Positions 20,537-28,054 of a DNA stretch of 47,242 nt are shown in pieces (positions within the stretch are counted from its first letter, which is position 1; the number at the start of each line of letters is the position of its first letter). The DNA is from Bacteroidales bacterium (GTDB lineage Bacteria; Bacteroidota; Bacteroidia; Bacteroidales; VadinHA17), in NCBI GenBank assembly GCA_021157415.1, contig JAGGWN010000116.1:1-47242 (forward strand). Direction: 5' to 3'. Below the pieces are notes generated by a model. It was not told the DNA's origin. It saw only the letters and a list, made by a program, of their open reading frames with translations, and did not search any database. The position numbers were made by a program, and so were the translations under genes.

Positions 20537-21358
20537 TTATTTTAGCCCTATATTATCCCTTAACTCCAATAAAAATTCATGGATCCCGGCACTGTCCCGC
20601 TTTCTGATCAACTCCATCAGTCCGGCTAGGCTGTCGTGGATCCTTTCCAGTTGAGGTAGGGTAAACGGATTCAATAAAATTTCCGAGAGCAGGTACTTAT
20701 CTTCTGACAACAGACCTGTAGCAATGTTCAGGTGTTTCCTGAAGGTTGTCCCAGGCACCTCCATTTTTACCATACAGGCAGCAAAAACCATGGTCGAGGC
20801 AAAAGGAACCGACAGGGAATAGGCAATGGTTTGATCGTGCTGATCAAAAGAATACTCAAAGATATGCAAGTGCAGGCTTTCATAAAAAGACCTGTAAAAT
20901 GCCTTTCCTTCCTCGCACGATTCCGAAATAATCACTGCATTTTCATTTTTTAGATCTTTGACATTCCCGAAAGTAGGTCCGAACATAGGATGGGTTGAAA
21001 CAAAGCGGTGTGCACATCCGGCATAATATTTTTTCAGTCCGTTTTTCACAGAGGCGATATCCGAGAGGATCGTTTTTTCGGACAGAAAAGGGATCACCCA
21101 ATCATAGACAGCCACGGTTTTTTGCAGGTTGACAGCATTGATGAGCAGATCCGGATCGAACTCCGTGATCTCTTCCGGATTGTTAATGCGTACGGTACGA
21201 AAGACATATTTCATCTTTTCGGGAATCTGGTCATAGATAGCCACATCATAATCCAGGCACAAAGATTCGGCGAGCCAGAGTCCCATTTTTCCGGCCCCGA
21301 GGATCAGAATCTTTTCAATATTCCGTTTTTCCTTTTTCTGTTTTTGTATCTCACTCAT
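20537..21358 (-). CDS. tyrA: Prephenate dehydrogenase family protein (TyrA)
   Basis: 273 residues. Oxidises and decarboxylates prephenate to 4-hydroxyphenylpyruvate for tyrosine. N-terminal Rossmann fold with ILGAGKMGLWLAE (18-30), then INAVNLQKT, DIASVK and STHPMFGPTFG, the last being a family signature containing the active-site His. A helical C-terminal domain follows with a second His in FDQHDQTIAYSLS. Last gene of the aromatic operon, separated from aroC by 120 bp, longer than the other gaps, so it could also have its own start site. No ACT domain is present, so Tyr feedback at this enzyme is not obvious. Confidence 0.9.
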   Translation of the reverse strand: MSEIQKQKKEKRNIEKILILGAGKMGLWLAESLCLDYDVAIYDQIPEKMKYVFRTVRINNPEEITEFDPDLLINAVNLQKTVAVYDWVIPFLSEKTILSDIASVKNGLKKYYAGCAHRFVSTHPMFGPTFGNVKDLKNENAVIISESCEEGKAFYRSFYESLHLHIFEYSFDQHDQTIAYSLSVPFASTMVFAACMVKMEVPGTTFRKHLNIATGLLSEDKYLLSEILLNPFTLPQLERIHDSLAGLMELIRKRDSAGIHEFLLELRDNIGLK

Positions 21359-21478: not shown

Positions 21479-22480
21479 TCAGGTTTCATACCGGTTATTT
21501 ATTTTATACGCATTATACACCAGCCACAGGTCAGCCAGGGTAATGGCAGTCACTGCTTCAAGTACCGGAGGCACCCGCAGGGCGATGCAGGCATCGTGCC
21601 GGCCTTTGATCAGCAGATCTTCCGTCTTTCCGGTTTTCACATTCAGGGTATGTTGTATTTTCCCGATACTGGAGGTTGGTTTCACCACGACACGGAACAC
21701 CAGTTCGTTGCCGTTGGTAATACCTCCGTTGATCCCTCCGGCATGGTTGGTCGCTGTTTTCCCGGTCTCATCCACGATCAGGTCATTGTGTTCGCTGCCC
21801 TTCATTTTAGCCGCAGCAAAGCCCGCTCCGAACTCTATCCCCTTGATGGCCGGGATGGAAAAAACAGCATGGCTGAGTAGTGACTCTGCCGAGTCAAAGA
21901 AAGGCTCTCCGAGGCCTACAGGCAAACCGTTCACCCGGCATACTACGATCCCTCCTATCGAATCCTTTTCATCCACAGCCTTTTGAACTGCAGCTTCAAT
22001 ATCTGCGGAACCTCCGGCTTCTGTCAGCAACGCTTTGATCTCCACACCGGTCAATATTTTTTTTGCGATCACGCCGGCAGCCACGAGAGCGGAAGTCAAC
22101 CGGCCGGAAAAATGACCTCCTCCACGATAGTCATTAAATCCTTTGTATTTTTTCATCGCCACAAAATCGGCATGTCCGGGTCGTGGCATTTCAATCTGCC
22201 GATCATAGTCTCCGGACCGCACATTTGTGTTTTCTATCAGGATTGTTAACGGCGCTCCGGTGGTTTTATCCTTAAACACCCCACTGCGTATCTCCGGCAC
22301 ATCCGGTTCGCTACGTGGTGTAGTCCCTTTGGCACCACTACGGCGGCGGGCCATATCCTCCCGGAAATCCTCCGGGACGAGTACAATCCCCGGCGGGACG
22401 CCATCGATCACGATGCCAACGCCGGCACCATGCGATTCGCCAAAGATCGTCACTGAAAATAATCTGCCGAATTTATTCAT
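21479..22480 (-). CDS. aroC: Chorismate synthase
   Basis: 333 residues. Converts 5-enolpyruvylshikimate-3-phosphate to chorismate with reduced FMN. Starts with the family signature FGRLFSVTIFGESHGAGVGI, then RRRSGAKGTTPRSEPD, FNDYRGGGHFSGRLT with the catalytic His, and HAGGINGGITNGNELVFRV. Slightly shorter than E. coli AroC (361) but with all main motifs. Its start overlaps the aroA stop by 8 bases, so the two are translationally coupled. Confidence 0.97.
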   Translation of the reverse strand: MNKFGRLFSVTIFGESHGAGVGIVIDGVPPGIVLVPEDFREDMARRRSGAKGTTPRSEPDVPEIRSGVFKDKTTGAPLTILIENTNVRSGDYDRQIEMPRPGHADFVAMKKYKGFNDYRGGGHFSGRLTSALVAAGVIAKKILTGVEIKALLTEAGGSADIEAAVQKAVDEKDSIGGIVVCRVNGLPVGLGEPFFDSAESLLSHAVFSIPAIKGIEFGAGFAAAKMKGSEHNDLIVDETGKTATNHAGGINGGITNGNELVFRVVVKPTSSIGKIQHTLNVKTGKTEDLLIKGRHDACIALRVPPVLEAVTAITLADLWLVYNAYKINNRYET

Positions 22481-23723
22481 AGACGTTTCCTCCTAGTTTT
22501 TTCAGATCTTGAAAGAAGTCCGGATAGGATTTACTCACACACTCTTTTCCGTGTATCGTCACGGGATTTTCTGCACGAAAGGCCATGGTGGCGGCAAACA
22601 TGGCTATGCGATGATCCTGATGAGCATCACTCTCACCGCCTGTGACACGGCCTCCATGGATTACCATCGTATCACCCTTCAGATCGATACGCACGCCCAG
22701 CTTGCCGGCTTCTTCCTGCAAGGTGAGCGCACGGTTACTTTCTTTTTCGTACAGGCGGCCGGCACCCCGGATCACGGTCTCCCCCTGTGCATAAGCCGCC
22801 AAACATACCAGTGGTGGAGCGAGGTCGGGACAATGGGTAATATCAAAAAAGAAAGGATGTATGTCACTTTTTTTTACGTACACATACCCCTGTGTCATAT
22901 CGGCTTCCACCCCTGCTGCACCAAGGGCTTCCATAATCCTCCGGTCGGCCTGGCGGCTTTCCGGGTCGAGGCCTGTCACCTTCAGCTCTCCGGCGATGGC
23001 AGCCGCCACCAGCAGAAAAGCAGCCCCGCTCCAGTCGCCTTCAATATCCATTTCCGCAGCTTGATATTCCTGGTTTGCAGGAACAAAAAAACGTTCGTAA
23101 CCGGAGTGTTCGCATTTTACACCAAAGTGCTCCATCACGCGCAAGGTCAGGTCAATGTAAGGCACACTTCTAAGCTTATCAACCCGGATGGTCGAATCCT
23201 TTTCTGCCAACGGCAGGCTCATAAGCAGGCCTGTGAGAAATTGCGAACTTTTGGAGCCGTCCACCCGGATATTTCCTCCCCGGAGTGGCCCATGTACCGT
23301 AACAGGCAAATAGCCTTTGTTTGTTTCCACCGTCACACCAAGGTGTTGCAACGGTTCAGTCATCATACCCATGGGACGTTTCATCAGGGACCCTCTGCCT
23401 GTTATGGTCATGGGTTGTGACAACACCGCTGCCAACGGTGTAAAAAGACGTGCCGTAAGTCCCGATTCGCCAACATCCAGCACATCTTCCAGCAAAGAGA
23501 TCCCTCCTTTTATCAGCCATTCATTGTCCCCTTCCGACACCTCCGCCCCGAGGGACCGGATGACCTGGCGAGCTGCCAGGGCATCGTCACAGGTGCTGGG
23601 ATAACGGACCCGTGTCTCTCCCCTGCTCAGCAATCCGGCAGCCAGCACCCGTATCATCACACTCTTGGAAGCCGGGGCCCGTATCGTGCCTTTCAGAAAA
23701 GAACTTTCTACCGTGATGTCCAT
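22473..23723 (-). CDS. aroA: 3-phosphoshikimate 1-carboxyvinyltransferase (EPSP synthase)
   Basis: 416 residues. Transfers the enolpyruvyl group of PEP to shikimate-3-phosphate. Marks: APASKSVMIRVLAAGLL at the N-terminus (Lys and Ser of the substrate site), GESGLTARLFTPLAAV in place of the usual GNAGTxxR, a known variation in some bacterial groups, DGSKSSQFLTGLLMSLPL, GDWSGAAFLLVAAAI, and DHRIAMFAATMAFR near the C-terminus. Sits 3 bp after aroB and overlaps aroC. The changed PEP-site loop is compatible with class II-like enzymes. Confidence 0.95.
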   Translation of the reverse strand: MDITVESSFLKGTIRAPASKSVMIRVLAAGLLSRGETRVRYPSTCDDALAARQVIRSLGAEVSEGDNEWLIKGGISLLEDVLDVGESGLTARLFTPLAAVLSQPMTITGRGSLMKRPMGMMTEPLQHLGVTVETNKGYLPVTVHGPLRGGNIRVDGSKSSQFLTGLLMSLPLAEKDSTIRVDKLRSVPYIDLTLRVMEHFGVKCEHSGYERFFVPANQEYQAAEMDIEGDWSGAAFLLVAAAIAGELKVTGLDPESRQADRRIMEALGAAGVEADMTQGYVYVKKSDIHPFFFDITHCPDLAPPLVCLAAYAQGETVIRGAGRLYEKESNRALTLQEEAGKLGVRIDLKGDTMVIHGGRVTGGESDAHQDHRIAMFAATMAFRAENPVTIHGKECVSKSYPDFFQDLKKLGGNVYE

Positions 23724-23726
23724 AAT

Positions 23727-24767
23727 TTATATTGTAAACAACTTTATATTTTCCAACAGATCCATAATCTCATCCGGCGACAACGGCCTGATGACTGTCT
23801 TTCCGGCATCTTTCAGTAACACAAAAGGAATTTCCTCTCCTTTCTTTTTCTTATCATGACTGATCAGCTCCATCACTTTGTCCCGGTCAGGTTTAATATG
23901 CGGCAATAACCCCAGGTTTTTCAACAAGGTAAAGATACGTTTTCCAAGCCTATCCTCAGCCAGACCCAGTTGTATGGAAATATCCACTGCCACCACCATG
24001 CCATACGCCACTGCTTTTCCGTGTGGCAGCTCATATAACCGTTCTATCCCGTGCCCATATGTATGTCCGAAATTCAGGATACGTCGCAGACCACGGTCTT
24101 CTTCATCCTGACTGACCACCGCCACTTTAACCCGAACACTTCGCCCGATCAGTTCAGCCAGCAGATCCTGATCTCCGGATATTTCCCGGGGAGTTTTCCC
24201 CTCAATGAGTGTCAGAATTCCGGGGTCACTAATCAACCCGTATTTCACTATTTCTGCCAGTCCTGAAACAAACTCATCTTCCGGTAAGGTTTTCAGAAAA
24301 GCCGGGTCAATCATTACAAAAGACGGTTGTCTGAACGTACCTACCATATTTTTATACTCCCCCAGGTTGATCCCGTTTTTCCCGCCTATGGCAGCATCCA
24401 CCTGTGCCAGCAAAGTAGTCGGCACAAACGATAGGTCCATGCCTCGCTGAAAAGTTGTGGCAACAAATCCCCCCAGGTCACAGATCACCCCTCCGCCGAC
24501 GGCTACCAACATATCAGAACGATTCGCTCCAAGGCGAATAAGCTCCTGATAGAGCAATGCGGCCCTTCCGAGTGACTTGGCCTGTTCTCCCCGGGGAATC
24601 CGTATTACGGGAACATCAGGGAAAGCTTCTCCGTGCAGGGCATAGATCTGATCATCGGTAAGCATTACGATCCTTTTCCCGGCAGTATACTCCTGCAGTT
24701 TCTCAAACGATTCACCGATCAGGATATCCGATGATCCCGTCGCGGCATGCAGCTGATATGTTTTCAT
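23727..24767 (-). CDS. aroB: 3-dehydroquinate synthase
   Basis: 346 residues. Closes DAHP to 3-dehydroquinate using NAD and a divalent metal. Marks: ALVGGGVICDLGGF-type motif (VAVGGGVICDLGGFVA), FVPTTLLAQVDAAIGGKNGIN, and NFGHTYGHGIER with metal-binding His, then LPHGKAVAYGM. Follows the DAHP synthase gene by 14 bp. The later shikimate genes aroD/Q, aroE and aroK are not in the window. Confidence 0.97.
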   Translation of the reverse strand: MKTYQLHAATGSSDILIGESFEKLQEYTAGKRIVMLTDDQIYALHGEAFPDVPVIRIPRGEQAKSLGRAALLYQELIRLGANRSDMLVAVGGGVICDLGGFVATTFQRGMDLSFVPTTLLAQVDAAIGGKNGINLGEYKNMVGTFRQPSFVMIDPAFLKTLPEDEFVSGLAEIVKYGLISDPGILTLIEGKTPREISGDQDLLAELIGRSVRVKVAVVSQDEEDRGLRRILNFGHTYGHGIERLYELPHGKAVAYGMVVAVDISIQLGLAEDRLGKRIFTLLKNLGLLPHIKPDRDKVMELISHDKKKKGEEIPFVLLKDAGKTVIRPLSPDEIMDLLENIKLFTI

Positions 24768-24781
24768 GCTCCCCGGATAAT

Positions 24782-25867
24782 TTATTCGTTCATAATCTTA
24801 TTCTGTTTCTTGATAGACTCCTGGTGAATGGCACGGAACACTTTATCCACAAATTCTTCACTCAGTCTTTTCTCCACTGCCTGTATCAATCTCTTTCCGA
24901 CAATTTCATTCCAGCGTGTAGTCTGGAAAATGGTGATATCGTTCTCTTTCTTGTACTCTCCGATCTTTTCAGCGATTCTCATCCTTTGCTCCAGCACATC
25001 CATCAGTTCATCATCCAGCATGTCTATTTGTTTTCTGTAACGCTGCAGCTTACTTAACAGATTTTTATCAAGGATTTCCTCTTTTCTGATCACCAGTTCT
25101 TTCAGCATTTTTTTCAGATCATCCGGCTTCAGTTGTTGATTTTTGTCGCTCAATGCCACATCAGGGTTGATGTGCGATTCAATGAACAAACCGGTAAAGT
25201 TAAGGTCCATGGCTTCCTGAGACACTTCTTTCAGCAGATCACGCCGGCCGCAGATATGGCTGGGATCCGTCAGAATGGGCAGTTTAGGCATTCGTCGGTG
25301 CAGTTCGATGGGGATTTCCCATTGAGGCACATTTCTGAATTTCGTCAGGCCGAAGTAAGAGAAACCCCGGTGGATGGCAGCCAGTTTTTTGATCCCGGCA
25401 CGGCTGAGTCGTTCGAAAGCGCCGATCCACAGATTCAGGTCGGGATTAACCGGATTCTTAACGAAAACCGGATTGTCCAGACCTTTCATGGCATCGGCCA
25501 GATCCTGCACAAAAAACGGGTTGACCGTCGTCCGGGCGCCAATCCAGAAAATATCAATGTCGTATTTCAGCGCTTCAAATATATGCGCAGGCTGTGCGAC
25601 CTCAATGGCAATTTTCATACCCAGTTCCCTTTTCACTTTTCTGAGCCATGGCAGTGCTTTCGGGCCCATTCCTTCGAAGCTTCCGGGTCGTGTCCGTGGC
25701 TTCCACACTCCGGCGCGATAGATGGAGACTCCCATCTCTTTCAGTTTATCAGCCGTCTCCATGACCTGCTTCTCCGACTCAGCACTACAGGGACCTGCAA
25801 CGATAACCGGTTTCTCATCCAGTTCTTTCGTGCAATCCAGTTCTTCCAGTTCAATGTCGTATTCCAT
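24782..25867 (-). CDS. Bifunctional DAHP synthase / chorismate mutase
   Basis: 361 residues. Residues ~1-265 are a KDO8P/AroG-beta-type DAHP synthase (condenses PEP and erythrose-4-P): VIVAGPCSAESEKQV near 20, GVWKPRTRPGSFEGMG, FWIGARTTVNPF, KNPVNPDLNLW, and LTDPSHICGRRDLL with the metal-binding His. Residues ~267-361 are an AroQ chorismate mutase: KLQRYRKQIDMLDDELMDVL with its Arg, then QRMRIAEKIGEYK. The fusion of mutase to the C-terminus, as in Porphyromonas and other Bacteroidota, lets prephenate bound to the mutase domain inhibit the synthase; that control is known from the family, not seen here. Lies between the aminotransferase gene (11-bp gap) and aroB. Confidence 0.95.
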   Translation of the reverse strand: MEYDIELEELDCTKELDEKPVIVAGPCSAESEKQVMETADKLKEMGVSIYRAGVWKPRTRPGSFEGMGPKALPWLRKVKRELGMKIAIEVAQPAHIFEALKYDIDIFWIGARTTVNPFFVQDLADAMKGLDNPVFVKNPVNPDLNLWIGAFERLSRAGIKKLAAIHRGFSYFGLTKFRNVPQWEIPIELHRRMPKLPILTDPSHICGRRDLLKEVSQEAMDLNFTGLFIESHINPDVALSDKNQQLKPDDLKKMLKELVIRKEEILDKNLLSKLQRYRKQIDMLDDELMDVLEQRMRIAEKIGEYKKENDITIFQTTRWNEIVGKRLIQAVEKRLSEEFVDKVFRAIHQESIKKQNKIMNE

Positions 25868-25878
25868 GATCCTATAAA

Positions 25879-27030
25879 TTAAATAATATTTTCAATTCTT
25901 TCCAATGCTTCCTGCAATACAGGAACCTCCTCACAAAGGGATACCCGGACAAAGCTCTTTCCATTATTTCCGAAGATGCCGCCGGGGGTGACAAATACCC
26001 GGGCATCATACAAAATTCTGTCCGTAAAATCATAAGCATCTACACCTCCGGGGGTCTTTGCCCACACAAATAATCCGTTGGATTCCGTCTCGTAGGTGCA
26101 CCCCAATGCGTCAAACAGGGCAAATACCCGTTCTCTCCGCTTTATATATTCCTTGTTCAGTGCTCCGAACCATTCAGTCGGGGCTTGAATCGCCTCGACA
26201 GTAGCCAGTTGCAACGGTTTGAATATTCCGGACTCAACATTGCTCAACACTGTAAACACCGGATCCAGAAATTCAGGAGCGCCGGCCAGCATTCCCATGC
26301 GCCACCCCGCCATATTGTATGTCTTACTCATGGAATTCAGTTCTATGGCTGTTTTCCGGGCTTCGTGCACCGAGAGAATGCTCAGGGGCCTGTCATTCAA
26401 GATAAAACTATAGGGATTGTCATGACAGATCAGAATATCATGATCCATTCCGAAATCCACCAGCCTCCGGAACAGTTCCCTGTTAGCCGGTTTCCCGCTG
26501 GGCATATTGGGATAATTAATCCACATGAGCTTCACCCCTGTCAGATCCAGTTGTTCCAATTCCCTGAAATCGGGATACCAACCGGTTTTTTCTGAAATAT
26601 TATACGTGACAGGTATGGCTTCCACCATTTCTGTAACCGACCGGTAGGCGGGATACCCCACATCGGGCACCAGTGCCTTGTCCCCGGGGTTAAGAAAGGC
26701 CATGGAAAGGTAAAATACCCCTTCCTTGGAACCTACCAGAGGGATTACTTCGTGATCGGGATCCAACGACACATTATAGAAATTTCCATACCAGTTGGCA
26801 TACGCTTTTCTCAAAGCCGGGAGCCCCCGATAAGACTGATACCCGTGTACATCCGGCATGACAGCTATCTCCAGCAATTTCCGGATCACTTTTTCCGGAG
26901 GAGGCAGATCAGGGTTGCCTATCCCCAGGTTGATCACCGGTGTGCCGGTCTCCGACATCCTTCTTATCTCCTCCAGTTTTCGTGAGAAGTAGTATTCCTT
27001 TGTTTTTTGCAAACGCCTGGCCCGTTCCAT
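25879..27030 (-). CDS. PLP-dependent class I aminotransferase, probable aromatic/prephenate aminotransferase
   Basis: 383 residues, fold type I. Marks: NLGIGNPDLPPPEKVI at the front, GSKEGVFYLSMAF, INYPNMPSGKPANRELF (the usual NPxNPTG site), CHDNPYSF with the PLP-binding Asp/Tyr, and NSMSKTYNMAGWRMGML carrying the Schiff-base Lys, and RVSL near the end binding the substrate carboxylate. Between pheA (2-bp gap) and the DAHP synthase gene, so it most likely makes Phe and Tyr from their keto acids. Related enzymes make LL-diaminopimelate, which cannot be excluded from sequence alone. Confidence 0.88.
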   Translation of the reverse strand: MERARRLQKTKEYYFSRKLEEIRRMSETGTPVINLGIGNPDLPPPEKVIRKLLEIAVMPDVHGYQSYRGLPALRKAYANWYGNFYNVSLDPDHEVIPLVGSKEGVFYLSMAFLNPGDKALVPDVGYPAYRSVTEMVEAIPVTYNISEKTGWYPDFRELEQLDLTGVKLMWINYPNMPSGKPANRELFRRLVDFGMDHDILICHDNPYSFILNDRPLSILSVHEARKTAIELNSMSKTYNMAGWRMGMLAGAPEFLDPVFTVLSNVESGIFKPLQLATVEAIQAPTEWFGALNKEYIKRRERVFALFDALGCTYETESNGLFVWAKTPGGVDAYDFTDRILYDARVFVTPGGIFGNNGKSFVRVSLCEEVPVLQEALERIENII

Positions 27031-27032
27031 GA

Positions 27033-27884
27033 TCAGATAATTTTCTTGCCTACAGGATATATCCCCAGTTCCCCCAACTCGCCCGTAAAAGGTTTAATGG
27101 CATGATAAGCCTGCTGATACAATTCAAAATCATCAAATACCAGATCTATATAAAACTGATACTCCCATTCTTTTCCGATTACCGGCAGGGATTGTATCTT
27201 CGTCAGGTTCATATTATAAAAAGATAAAATGGAAAGGATCTTTGAGAGGCTTCCTATTTTGTGGGATAATGTAAAATAAAGGGATGATTTATAGTCAACA
27301 TTTTCATGAAGCGTATGGTTTCCGTTTTCACTTACCACTAGAAAACGAGTATAATTCACCGGGTTGGTCTCAATTCCGGAGGCCAGGATGTCCAATGCAT
27401 ATTTTTGTGCTGCCAGCTCACTGGCGATAGCACCTATGCCACGTAATTTTTTTTCATGGATATCCCTGGCCGATAAGGCTGTATCAACGCTTTCGATCAA
27501 ACGGATTCCGGGATATTTCTCAAAATACGCCTGACATTGCAGAATGGCCATCGGATGAGAATACACTTCATGGAGGTCTTCGATTTTCTGGCCGGGTAAA
27601 GCCACCAGGTTATGACGGATCCGCAGAAAGATCTCTCCCACAATCTTTTTACTGGATTCACGGAGCAGGTTATAATTAGGCAGGATACTCCCCGCAATGG
27701 AATTCTCAATAGCCAGAATCCCATAGTCGGCCTGCCGTTCCTTCAAAGACTTCAACAGATCATCAAACGTATTGCGAGGAATAACCTCTATCTCCTCAGG
27801 CTCAAAATAATAGATAGCCGCCATTTCGTGAAAAGCTCCGAAACCGCCTTGTATTGCAATTCTCTTTTTCCATTTTGTTTTCAT
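27033..27884 (-). CDS. pheA: Prephenate dehydratase with ACT domain
   Basis: 283 residues from ATG 27884 (GAGGG six bases upstream; an in-frame ATG at 27890 is too close to that site). Makes phenylpyruvate from prephenate. Marks: RIAIQGGFGAFHEMAA at the start, GILAIENSIAGSILPNYNLL, VALPGQKIEDLHEVYSHPMAI, the AAQKYALDILASGIE segment and NYTRFLVVS, with the catalytic Thr. The C-terminal ~90 residues (SSLYFTLSHKIGSLSKILSI..., ESL-like region replaced by IQSLPVIG) are an ACT domain, which in this family binds Phe for feedback. No chorismate mutase is attached; that activity is in the downstream DAHP synthase fusion. First structural gene after the attenuator. Confidence 0.95.
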   Translation of the reverse strand: MKTKWKKRIAIQGGFGAFHEMAAIYYFEPEEIEVIPRNTFDDLLKSLKERQADYGILAIENSIAGSILPNYNLLRESSKKIVGEIFLRIRHNLVALPGQKIEDLHEVYSHPMAILQCQAYFEKYPGIRLIESVDTALSARDIHEKKLRGIGAIASELAAQKYALDILASGIETNPVNYTRFLVVSENGNHTLHENVDYKSSLYFTLSHKIGSLSKILSILSFYNMNLTKIQSLPVIGKEWEYQFYIDLVFDDFELYQQAYHAIKPFTGELGELGIYPVGKKII

Positions 27885-27895
27885 GATCATCCCTC

Positions 27896-27924
27896 AAAAA
27901 AAAATCCCGGCTGTGACCGGGATT
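27896..27924 (-). terminator. Leader terminator (attenuator) before pheA
   Basis: On the minus strand AATCCCGG and CCGGGATT form a perfect 8-bp stem with a six-base loop, followed at once by nine T. It lies between the promoter and the pheA ribosome site, so it would stop transcription before the operon unless prevented. Confidence 0.9.
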
Positions 27925-27946
27925 GTATTTCATTATAACATATAAA

Positions 27947-27969
27947 AATCCCGTCAGATTATCAATCTG
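27947..27969 (-). promoter_or_regulatory. Antiterminator segment and 1:2 hairpin of the Phe/Tyr attenuator
   Basis: CAGATTgatAATCTG (27955-27969) can fold as a pre-emptor hairpin at the end of the leader peptide. The overlapping GACGGGATT (27947-27955) can pair with AATCCCGGTC of the terminator's 5' arm with one bulge. The two pairings are mutually exclusive with each other and with the terminator. Confidence 0.75.
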
Positions 27970-28004
27970 TGGTAAAAATAAAAATATGTAAAATCAAAAG
28001 CCAT
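27954..28004 (-). CDS. Phe/Tyr leader peptide of the aromatic operon
   Basis: A 16-residue ORF, MAFDFTYFYFYHRLII, with four Phe and three Tyr codons within residues 3-11, then a UGA stop that lies inside antiterminator segment 2. It starts about 18 bases after the -7 box and ends 30 bases before the terminator stem. Known leader peptides of phe attenuators are similarly rich in the regulated amino acid. A ribosome stalled on the aromatic run would cover segment 1 and free segment 2 to pair with the terminator arm; one that reaches the stop would block segment 2 and let the terminator form. Confidence 0.85.
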   Translation of the reverse strand: MAFDFTYFYFYHRLII

Positions 28005-28022
28005 GAAAATTCTTTTACACTG

Positions 28023-28054
28023 CAAACATATTTAATAATCCTTTTTTAAGCAAA
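28023..28054 (-). promoter_or_regulatory. Consensus promoter of the aromatic operon
   Basis: Minus-strand TTTG (28054-28051), a 20-base spacer and TATGTTTG (28030-28023) match the Bacteroidota -33/-7 consensus perfectly. Transcription should begin near 28017, just ahead of the leader peptide. Confidence 0.85.

Follow-up and report, generated by a model that had tools for sequence, protein, structure and literature searches.

A candidate ribosome-mediated attenuator with mixed Phe and Tyr codons before pheA of a Bacteroidales bacterium, and its occurrence in the class Bacteroidia

The seven genes from pheA to tyrA in a Bacteroidales genome (VadinHA17 lineage) are preceded by an element that is very probably a ribosome-mediated transcription attenuator and would respond to the availability of charged tRNA-Phe and tRNA-Tyr. 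It occupies positions 28054-27896 on the minus strand of the DNA analysed, a stretch of 47,242 nucleotides (contig JAGGWN010000116.1 of assembly GCA_021157415.1) that is called the window throughout. The sequence contains a run of codons for products of the operon, an intrinsic terminator and a putative antiterminator exclusive of this terminator, which are among the features by which such attenuators are recognised. A preliminary description of the window had claimed that all parts follow one another in order on the minus strand, and each of them was found in its place:

28023..28054, minus strand: promoter TTTG-N20-TATGTTTG (TTTG at 28054-28051, TATGTTTG at 28030-28023)
27954..28004, minus strand: leader peptide MAFDFTYFYFYHRLII with stop codon (ATG at 28004, TGA at 27956-27954)
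27955..27969, minus strand: 1:2 hairpin CAGATT-GAT-AATCTG, 6 bp, ending at the leader stop codon; putative pause hairpin or weak competitor
27946..27957, minus strand: segment A, 5' strand of the antiterminator, CTGACGGGATTT, spanning the leader stop
27913..27925, minus strand: segment B, 3' strand of the antiterminator, CAATCCCGGTCAC, overlapping the 5' arm and the loop of the terminator
27896..27924, minus strand: intrinsic terminator, a AATCCCGG/CCGGGATT hairpin followed by T9, from the sequence and a terminator scan

The observation was thereby confirmed as genuine, and its first reading is supported in essence. This holds for the perfect TTTG-N20 promoter, the leader of 16 codons with Phe or Tyr at seven of nine positions (the block FDFTYFYFY), the hairpin at the end of the leader, the antiterminator strand over its stop, and the terminator, whose nine T end close to the pheA start and on which sequence and scan agree. 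Shuffling the 450 nt upstream of pheA 100 times never produced an ATG leader equally rich in these codons. The promoter, which we take to be of the Bacteroidota -33/-7 consensus type, is the single minus-strand match to TTTG-N18..21-TANNTTTG in the window, both strands together having two matches where 0.71 are expected. The arms AATCCCGG...CCGGGATT of the terminator lie at 27924-27903, and the hairpin sequence (AATCCCGGTCACAGCCGGGATT) runs into nine T at 27904-27896, shortly before the start of pheA at 27890.

The downstream genes were named by profile search, in which AroB, AroA and AroC passed the curated cut-offs and the other four were assigned by best match:

27033..27890, minus strand: pheA, prephenate dehydratase (below curated cut-off, best match)
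25879..27030, minus strand: class I aminotransferase (below curated cut-offs; best match to LL-diaminopimelate aminotransferase models)
24782..25867, minus strand: aroF-aroQ, DAHP synthase / chorismate mutase (below curated cut-off, best match)
23727..24767, minus strand: aroB, 3-dehydroquinate synthase (over curated cut-off)
22473..23723, minus strand: aroA, EPSP synthase (over curated cut-off)
21479..22480, minus strand: aroC, chorismate synthase (over curated cut-off)
20537..21358, minus strand: tyrA-like prephenate dehydrogenase (below curated cut-off, best match)

Judged from their spacing, the seven genes would be read as one transcript. Within the 120-nt gap between aroC and tyrA, scans found neither a TTTG/TANNTTTG promoter nor a terminator; one weak sigma-70-like match is present there. 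Leader sequence and profile names agree with the earlier claim that the codons mix Phe and Tyr and that the controlled unit includes the shared shikimate genes. Upstream of the element lies nth, divergent, from 28186 on the plus strand. Thus the terminator is not needed by any transcript from a gene upstream.

From the parts, their conservation, the covarying pairings and the geometry we infer the following course of stalling and termination. RNA polymerase would start about 7 nt after TATGTTTG, and a ribosome would load on the leader at once. When charged tRNA for Phe or Tyr runs low, the ribosome would stall in the FDFTYFYFY block with its leading edge at about the start of A; free A could then pair with B before the 3' arm of the terminator (C) is made, which would block the terminator and let pheA-aat-aroFQ-aroB-aroA-aroC-tyrA be transcribed. 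If both tRNAs are plentiful, the ribosome would reach the stop and cover A, B would pair with C, and transcription would end at about 27896.

The preliminary description had proposed to look in related genomes for conservation of the leader and its alternative stems. In this comparison the leader and the terminator/antiterminator pair turned out to be conserved across the class, with compensating change. PheA is present in 40 of 60 relatives and in 337 of 392 genomes across the phylum. The DNA before pheA was read in 118 of the 119 loci retrieved; these were chosen from the better PheA matches, which leaves distant PheA types under-represented, and a further 12 genomes whose PheA is divergent were included deliberately. 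An ATG ORF in which six or more of ten codons specify Phe or Tyr occurs in 91 of the 118 upstream regions, as against 1.0% of 11,800 dinucleotide shuffles and none of the 118 reverse strands. With GTG starts allowed and 700 nt upstream considered, a Phe/Tyr leader precedes pheA at 33 of the 34 usable loci of the same order (window included), at 55 of 59 in other orders of the class, at 5 of 25 in other classes and at 71 of 77 named loci; named and unnamed loci partly overlap (L121 = L017, L129 = L019, L160 = L022), hence the sets are not independent, and the counts carry no correction for relatedness. Leader and terminator together were found, by a strict rule that overlooks some visible terminators (e. 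g. at L018), at 27 loci of the same order, 52 of other orders, 4 of other classes and 63 named ones. The background, taken from the remainder of the same loci, is 3 leader-terminator pairs in 2.32 million strand-bases.

Four loci (L020, L154, L183, L195) were excluded because they have too little upstream sequence. Five that had first been scored as leaderless (L085, L147, L165, L193, L198) have a leader with a GTG start on re-reading, and L171 has a weaker one; L029 has only five Phe in ten codons. Leaders are also present in gut Bacteroides, namely B.xylanisolvens (L187) and B.finegoldii (L180), which like Dysgonomonas hofstadii are culturable carriers. None of the 12 genomes with divergent PheA has a leader in the 548-700 nt read upstream of the located gene. 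Taken by class and by PheA type, these counts show that the element tracks one PheA type and, with few exceptions, the class Bacteroidia, in which such predicted Phe/Tyr leaders are common rather than exceptional. In one family of the class (L055, L074, L089), pheA lies 3' of an aroA-like gene and no leader was found there.

The promoter motif is conserved as well. TANNTTTG was found before the leader in 104 of 150 elements (16.6 expected), in 68 of these 104 at a distance of 18-28 nt from the leader ATG, and 72 of the 150 have TTG-N18..22-TANNTTTG no more than 110 nt ahead of the leader (1.2 expected).

The pairings were compared in 152 distinct leader-terminator elements, a set that omits leaders without a terminator by the rule, repeats, and cases with less than 15 nt for A. 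The A:B pairing is stronger than in dinucleotide shuffles (p<=0.05) in 121 of them, a count that carries no correction for kinship and compares with 7.6 expected, and these 121 have 110 distinct B strands. Mean A:B energies are -15.8 kcal/mol for the elements' own pairs, as against -10.3 for mixed pairs, in which strands of different loci are combined, and -8.5 in shuffles. An element's own pair ranks above the mean of its mixed pairs in 146 of 152 cases and within the best 5% in just 66. The terminator arms have diverged with both pairings kept, so that there is change on both sides. The window's own A:B pairing is borderline (p 0.05), and that of four further members of the genus (L002-L005) is not significant (p 0.06-0.255), as the strands hardly vary there. 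The strength of the case for A:B is therefore comparative and would not follow from the window sequence alone.

According to the preliminary description, three pairings are mutually exclusive. This holds for A:B and B:C, since both use B and the antiterminator hence excludes the terminator, but not for the 1:2 hairpin and A:B, which in the window form together both in a fold of the whole leader and in a shorter transcript that still lacks the 3' arm. A local hairpin between the aromatic block and A exceeds shuffles in 43 of the 152 elements (p<=0.05), and a pairing of A with the upstream leader does so in 29 (within the genus in L003-L006, but not in L001 and L002). The 1:2 hairpin, weak against shuffles and in the window compatible with A:B, is not supported as an obligatory competitor. 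It looks more like a pause hairpin or a partial competitor than like the third state known from enteric trp.

When the elements were folded with no ribosome, B was mostly paired upstream in 113 of 152. Thus the predicted default of most untranslated elements is readthrough, and loss of leader translation should lead to readthrough, whereas the untranslated default in the enteric trp scheme is a different one. With a ribosome placed on the aromatic block, B was sequestered in 150 of 152 elements, and with the ribosome at the stop in 2 (both with a 10-nt edge), a contrast that is in part trivial because covered sequence is omitted from the fold. In a control with shuffled spacers, sequestration of B reached 0.5 in 56% of the trials, and folding with ribosome positions is therefore not relied upon here. 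In the fold with a stalled ribosome, 91 of the 152 elements exceeded 95% of their 20 shuffles; the window was not among them. A control fold favoured the terminator at equilibrium even in the stalled state, which implies that the switch would have to be kinetic; this depends on the ends chosen, as the longer fold of the whole leader has A:B instead.

In the 121 elements with a supported A:B pairing, the last aromatic codon is followed by the start of A at a median distance of 8 nt (IQR 6-10, sd 3.2, as against sd 14.1 in shuffles), and this spacing is nearly constant from leaders with 0-3 further codons up to those with at least 10. Measured from the stop codon, the start of A spreads more widely (sd 11.1); A lies wholly within the ORF in 63 elements, across the stop in 44 and after it in 14. 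The leading edge of a ribosome is about 10 nt after the codon in its A site. With this footprint and a spacing of about 8 nt, a ribosome on the aromatic block would just free A, and one a few codons further would cover it. By the same measure, A lies 6 nt after the last control codon in E.coli K-12 pheL, 5 nt in thrL and 13 nt in trpL; hisL (40 nt), ilvL (0 nt) and leuL (0 nt) gave no clear value. A fixed spacing from codons to antiterminator is a rule that could aid the annotation of further leaders.

The leaders contain on average 5.2 Phe and 3.5 Tyr codons, and at least two of each in 161 of 166. An alternative reading is that the ORF encodes a functional hydrophobic micropeptide, for example of the membrane, and that the terminator serves only to adjust its amount or to end a short RNA unconnected with it. 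The conservation of ORF and terminator and the hydrophobicity of Phe/Tyr-rich peptides would fit this. However, the peptides vary in length, order and tail, whereas their aromatic content is kept and RNA strand A stays at its fixed distance, often within the peptide tail; moreover, the genus has runs of Trp codons before trpE and of His codons before hisG. We therefore regard a micropeptide as very improbable. The window's genome itself has a leader with three Trp codons (MNRTYTCWWWLNENRMLS) and a terminator before trpE (L234, contig 67, leader starting at about base 1323 of the reverse complement), and a Trp-rich leader was found at 11 of 12 trpE loci. His-run leaders precede hisG in the genus and family (L203-L208, e. 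g. MYGKHHHHHHFVSCQKAWQG), with MIHHHHHYFVSCR as an example from the genus; a search of the window's own assembly yielded no hisG. Upstream of ilvB, 11 loci scored for Val/Ile/Leu codons had no clear leader.

A 5' element switched without a translating ribosome, i. e. a riboswitch, a T box or a protein-bound leader with an incidental ORF, would show a similar terminator and antiterminator, and the passage on amino-acid operons in PMC9723704 calls the pheA element of Flavobacteriaceae structured, naming no mechanism for it there. Yet Rfam 15 covariance models (amino-acid leaders, T box and others) gave no match at gathering score in the window and 12 further loci of relatives, the leader RNA is just about 120 nt long with 51 nt taken up by the ORF, and a switch of this sort would explain neither the aromatic block nor its distance from A. 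We give this possibility very little credence, and ribosome-mediated attenuation remains the preferred reading. Chance, i. e. TTY/TAY runs in AT-rich intergenic DNA beside an ordinary terminator, is practically negligible as an explanation: runs of five TWY codons are common (194 in the window's genome, 322 for the reversed pattern), but neither the position-specific conservation against the low background given above nor the covariation of terminator and antiterminator arms is to be expected from it. A search for such five-codon runs in the window's genome and two relatives was swamped by chance occurrences and could not single out further aromatic leaders.

The closest known system is pheL-pheA of E.coli K-12 (L280), where a Phe-rich leader directly precedes pheA, with an A:B antiterminator, a B:C terminator and the short spacing given above. 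It differs in that pheL contains Phe and no Tyr codons, whereas the leader in the window mixes both, and in that pheL precedes pheA with tyrA beside it in inverted orientation, whereas the set in the window includes tyrA and the shared shikimate genes. In a comparative study of 2004, Vitreschak and co-workers reportedly listed Bacteroidetes among the groups with candidate attenuators. For Flavobacterium psychrophilum, a paper of 2021 describes clues to leader-peptide attenuation before amino-acid operons and reports that in Flavobacteriaceae pheA and hisG are preceded by structured 5' elements that are conserved (PMC9723704). The pheA element described there concerns the same gene, the same phylum and likewise a transcribed 5' region; the account of it gives no leader sequence, codon content, geometry or tandem copies and no distribution outside Flavobacteriaceae, whereas here leaders were found across many genomes of the class. 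The Bacteroid-trp motif (RF01692), listed as a candidate regulatory RNA in Bacteroidetes and named after trp, concerns another operon, the account of the motif in PMC2864571 gives no mechanism, and it has no Rfam match in the window and the 12 loci. Long 5' UTRs of B.thetaiotaomicron hold short ORFs reminiscent of attenuation leaders (from a passage in PMC7366714), and the part of PMC8305728 that concerns his attenuation mentions it for enteric bacteria only.

The earlier statement that leader-peptide attenuation is seldom described in Bacteroidota has to be modified: the leaders are common in the class and clues to them are in print (PMC9723704), but a mixed Phe/Tyr leader was not found described in the mainly open-access literature searched on leader peptides and attenuation in Bacteroidota or at pheA. 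Ribosome-mediated attenuation is known as a kind, and the element, which very likely works by ribosome stalling, is of interest for the putative joint reading of Phe and Tyr, the breadth of its occurrence and its serial copies.

Serial copies were found at about ten loci in total. Two leader-terminator units precede pheA by the rule at L010, L017 (= L121), L030, L036, L057, L060 and L155, and two Phe/Tyr units in series are visible by eye at L028, L099 and L173. Both copies have a supported A:B pairing (p<=0.05) in L017, L030, L057 and L060. The carriers belong to five families, to which records from Saprospiraceae (L155) and Paludibacteraceae (L173) are to be added. In the tandem pheA loci each of the two copies is a Phe/Tyr leader, whereas the two ORFs in the leader region of Salmonella mgtCBR sense different signals. 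What the two cases share is a pair of short ORFs within a single leader region, described for Salmonella as tandem attenuators (PMC3641672).

A possible interpretation, which we put forward tentatively, is that an old attenuator of the Bacteroidia measures the aromatic amino acids jointly and was duplicated in tandem several times, in which case polymerase would pass two like switches and control would be steeper. Joint measurement in this sense might be seen in the presence of Phe and Tyr codons nearly throughout and in the addition of Trp codons in some leaders from outside the order. If the attenuator works as proposed, its spread would mean that in Bacteroidota the ribosome stays close behind RNA polymerase over roughly the first hundred nucleotides. 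The element offers a widespread, ready-made test of whether transcription-translation coupling is tight in Bacteroidota, gut Bacteroides included, and it is a candidate for a codon-reading sensor of two amino acids at once.

As to Trp, the 56 leaders from other orders of the class contain 27 TGG codons in total, the 38 leaders of the same order 3 and the 67 named ones 8. Whether Trp codons go with a particular operon content was considered, and no such link was established. In a number of leaders from other orders (L041, L051, L056, L059, L064-L067, L083, L087, L091, L097), Trp codons stand within or beside the Phe/Tyr block; perhaps Trp is a third amino acid sensed there, which we mention as a lead only.

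Two records titled Lentisphaeria/Lentisphaerae (L178 and L132) contain a PheA that resembles that of Bacteroidales, either through transfer or through mis-binned contigs. One of them, L178, also has a Phe/Tyr leader with a terminator.
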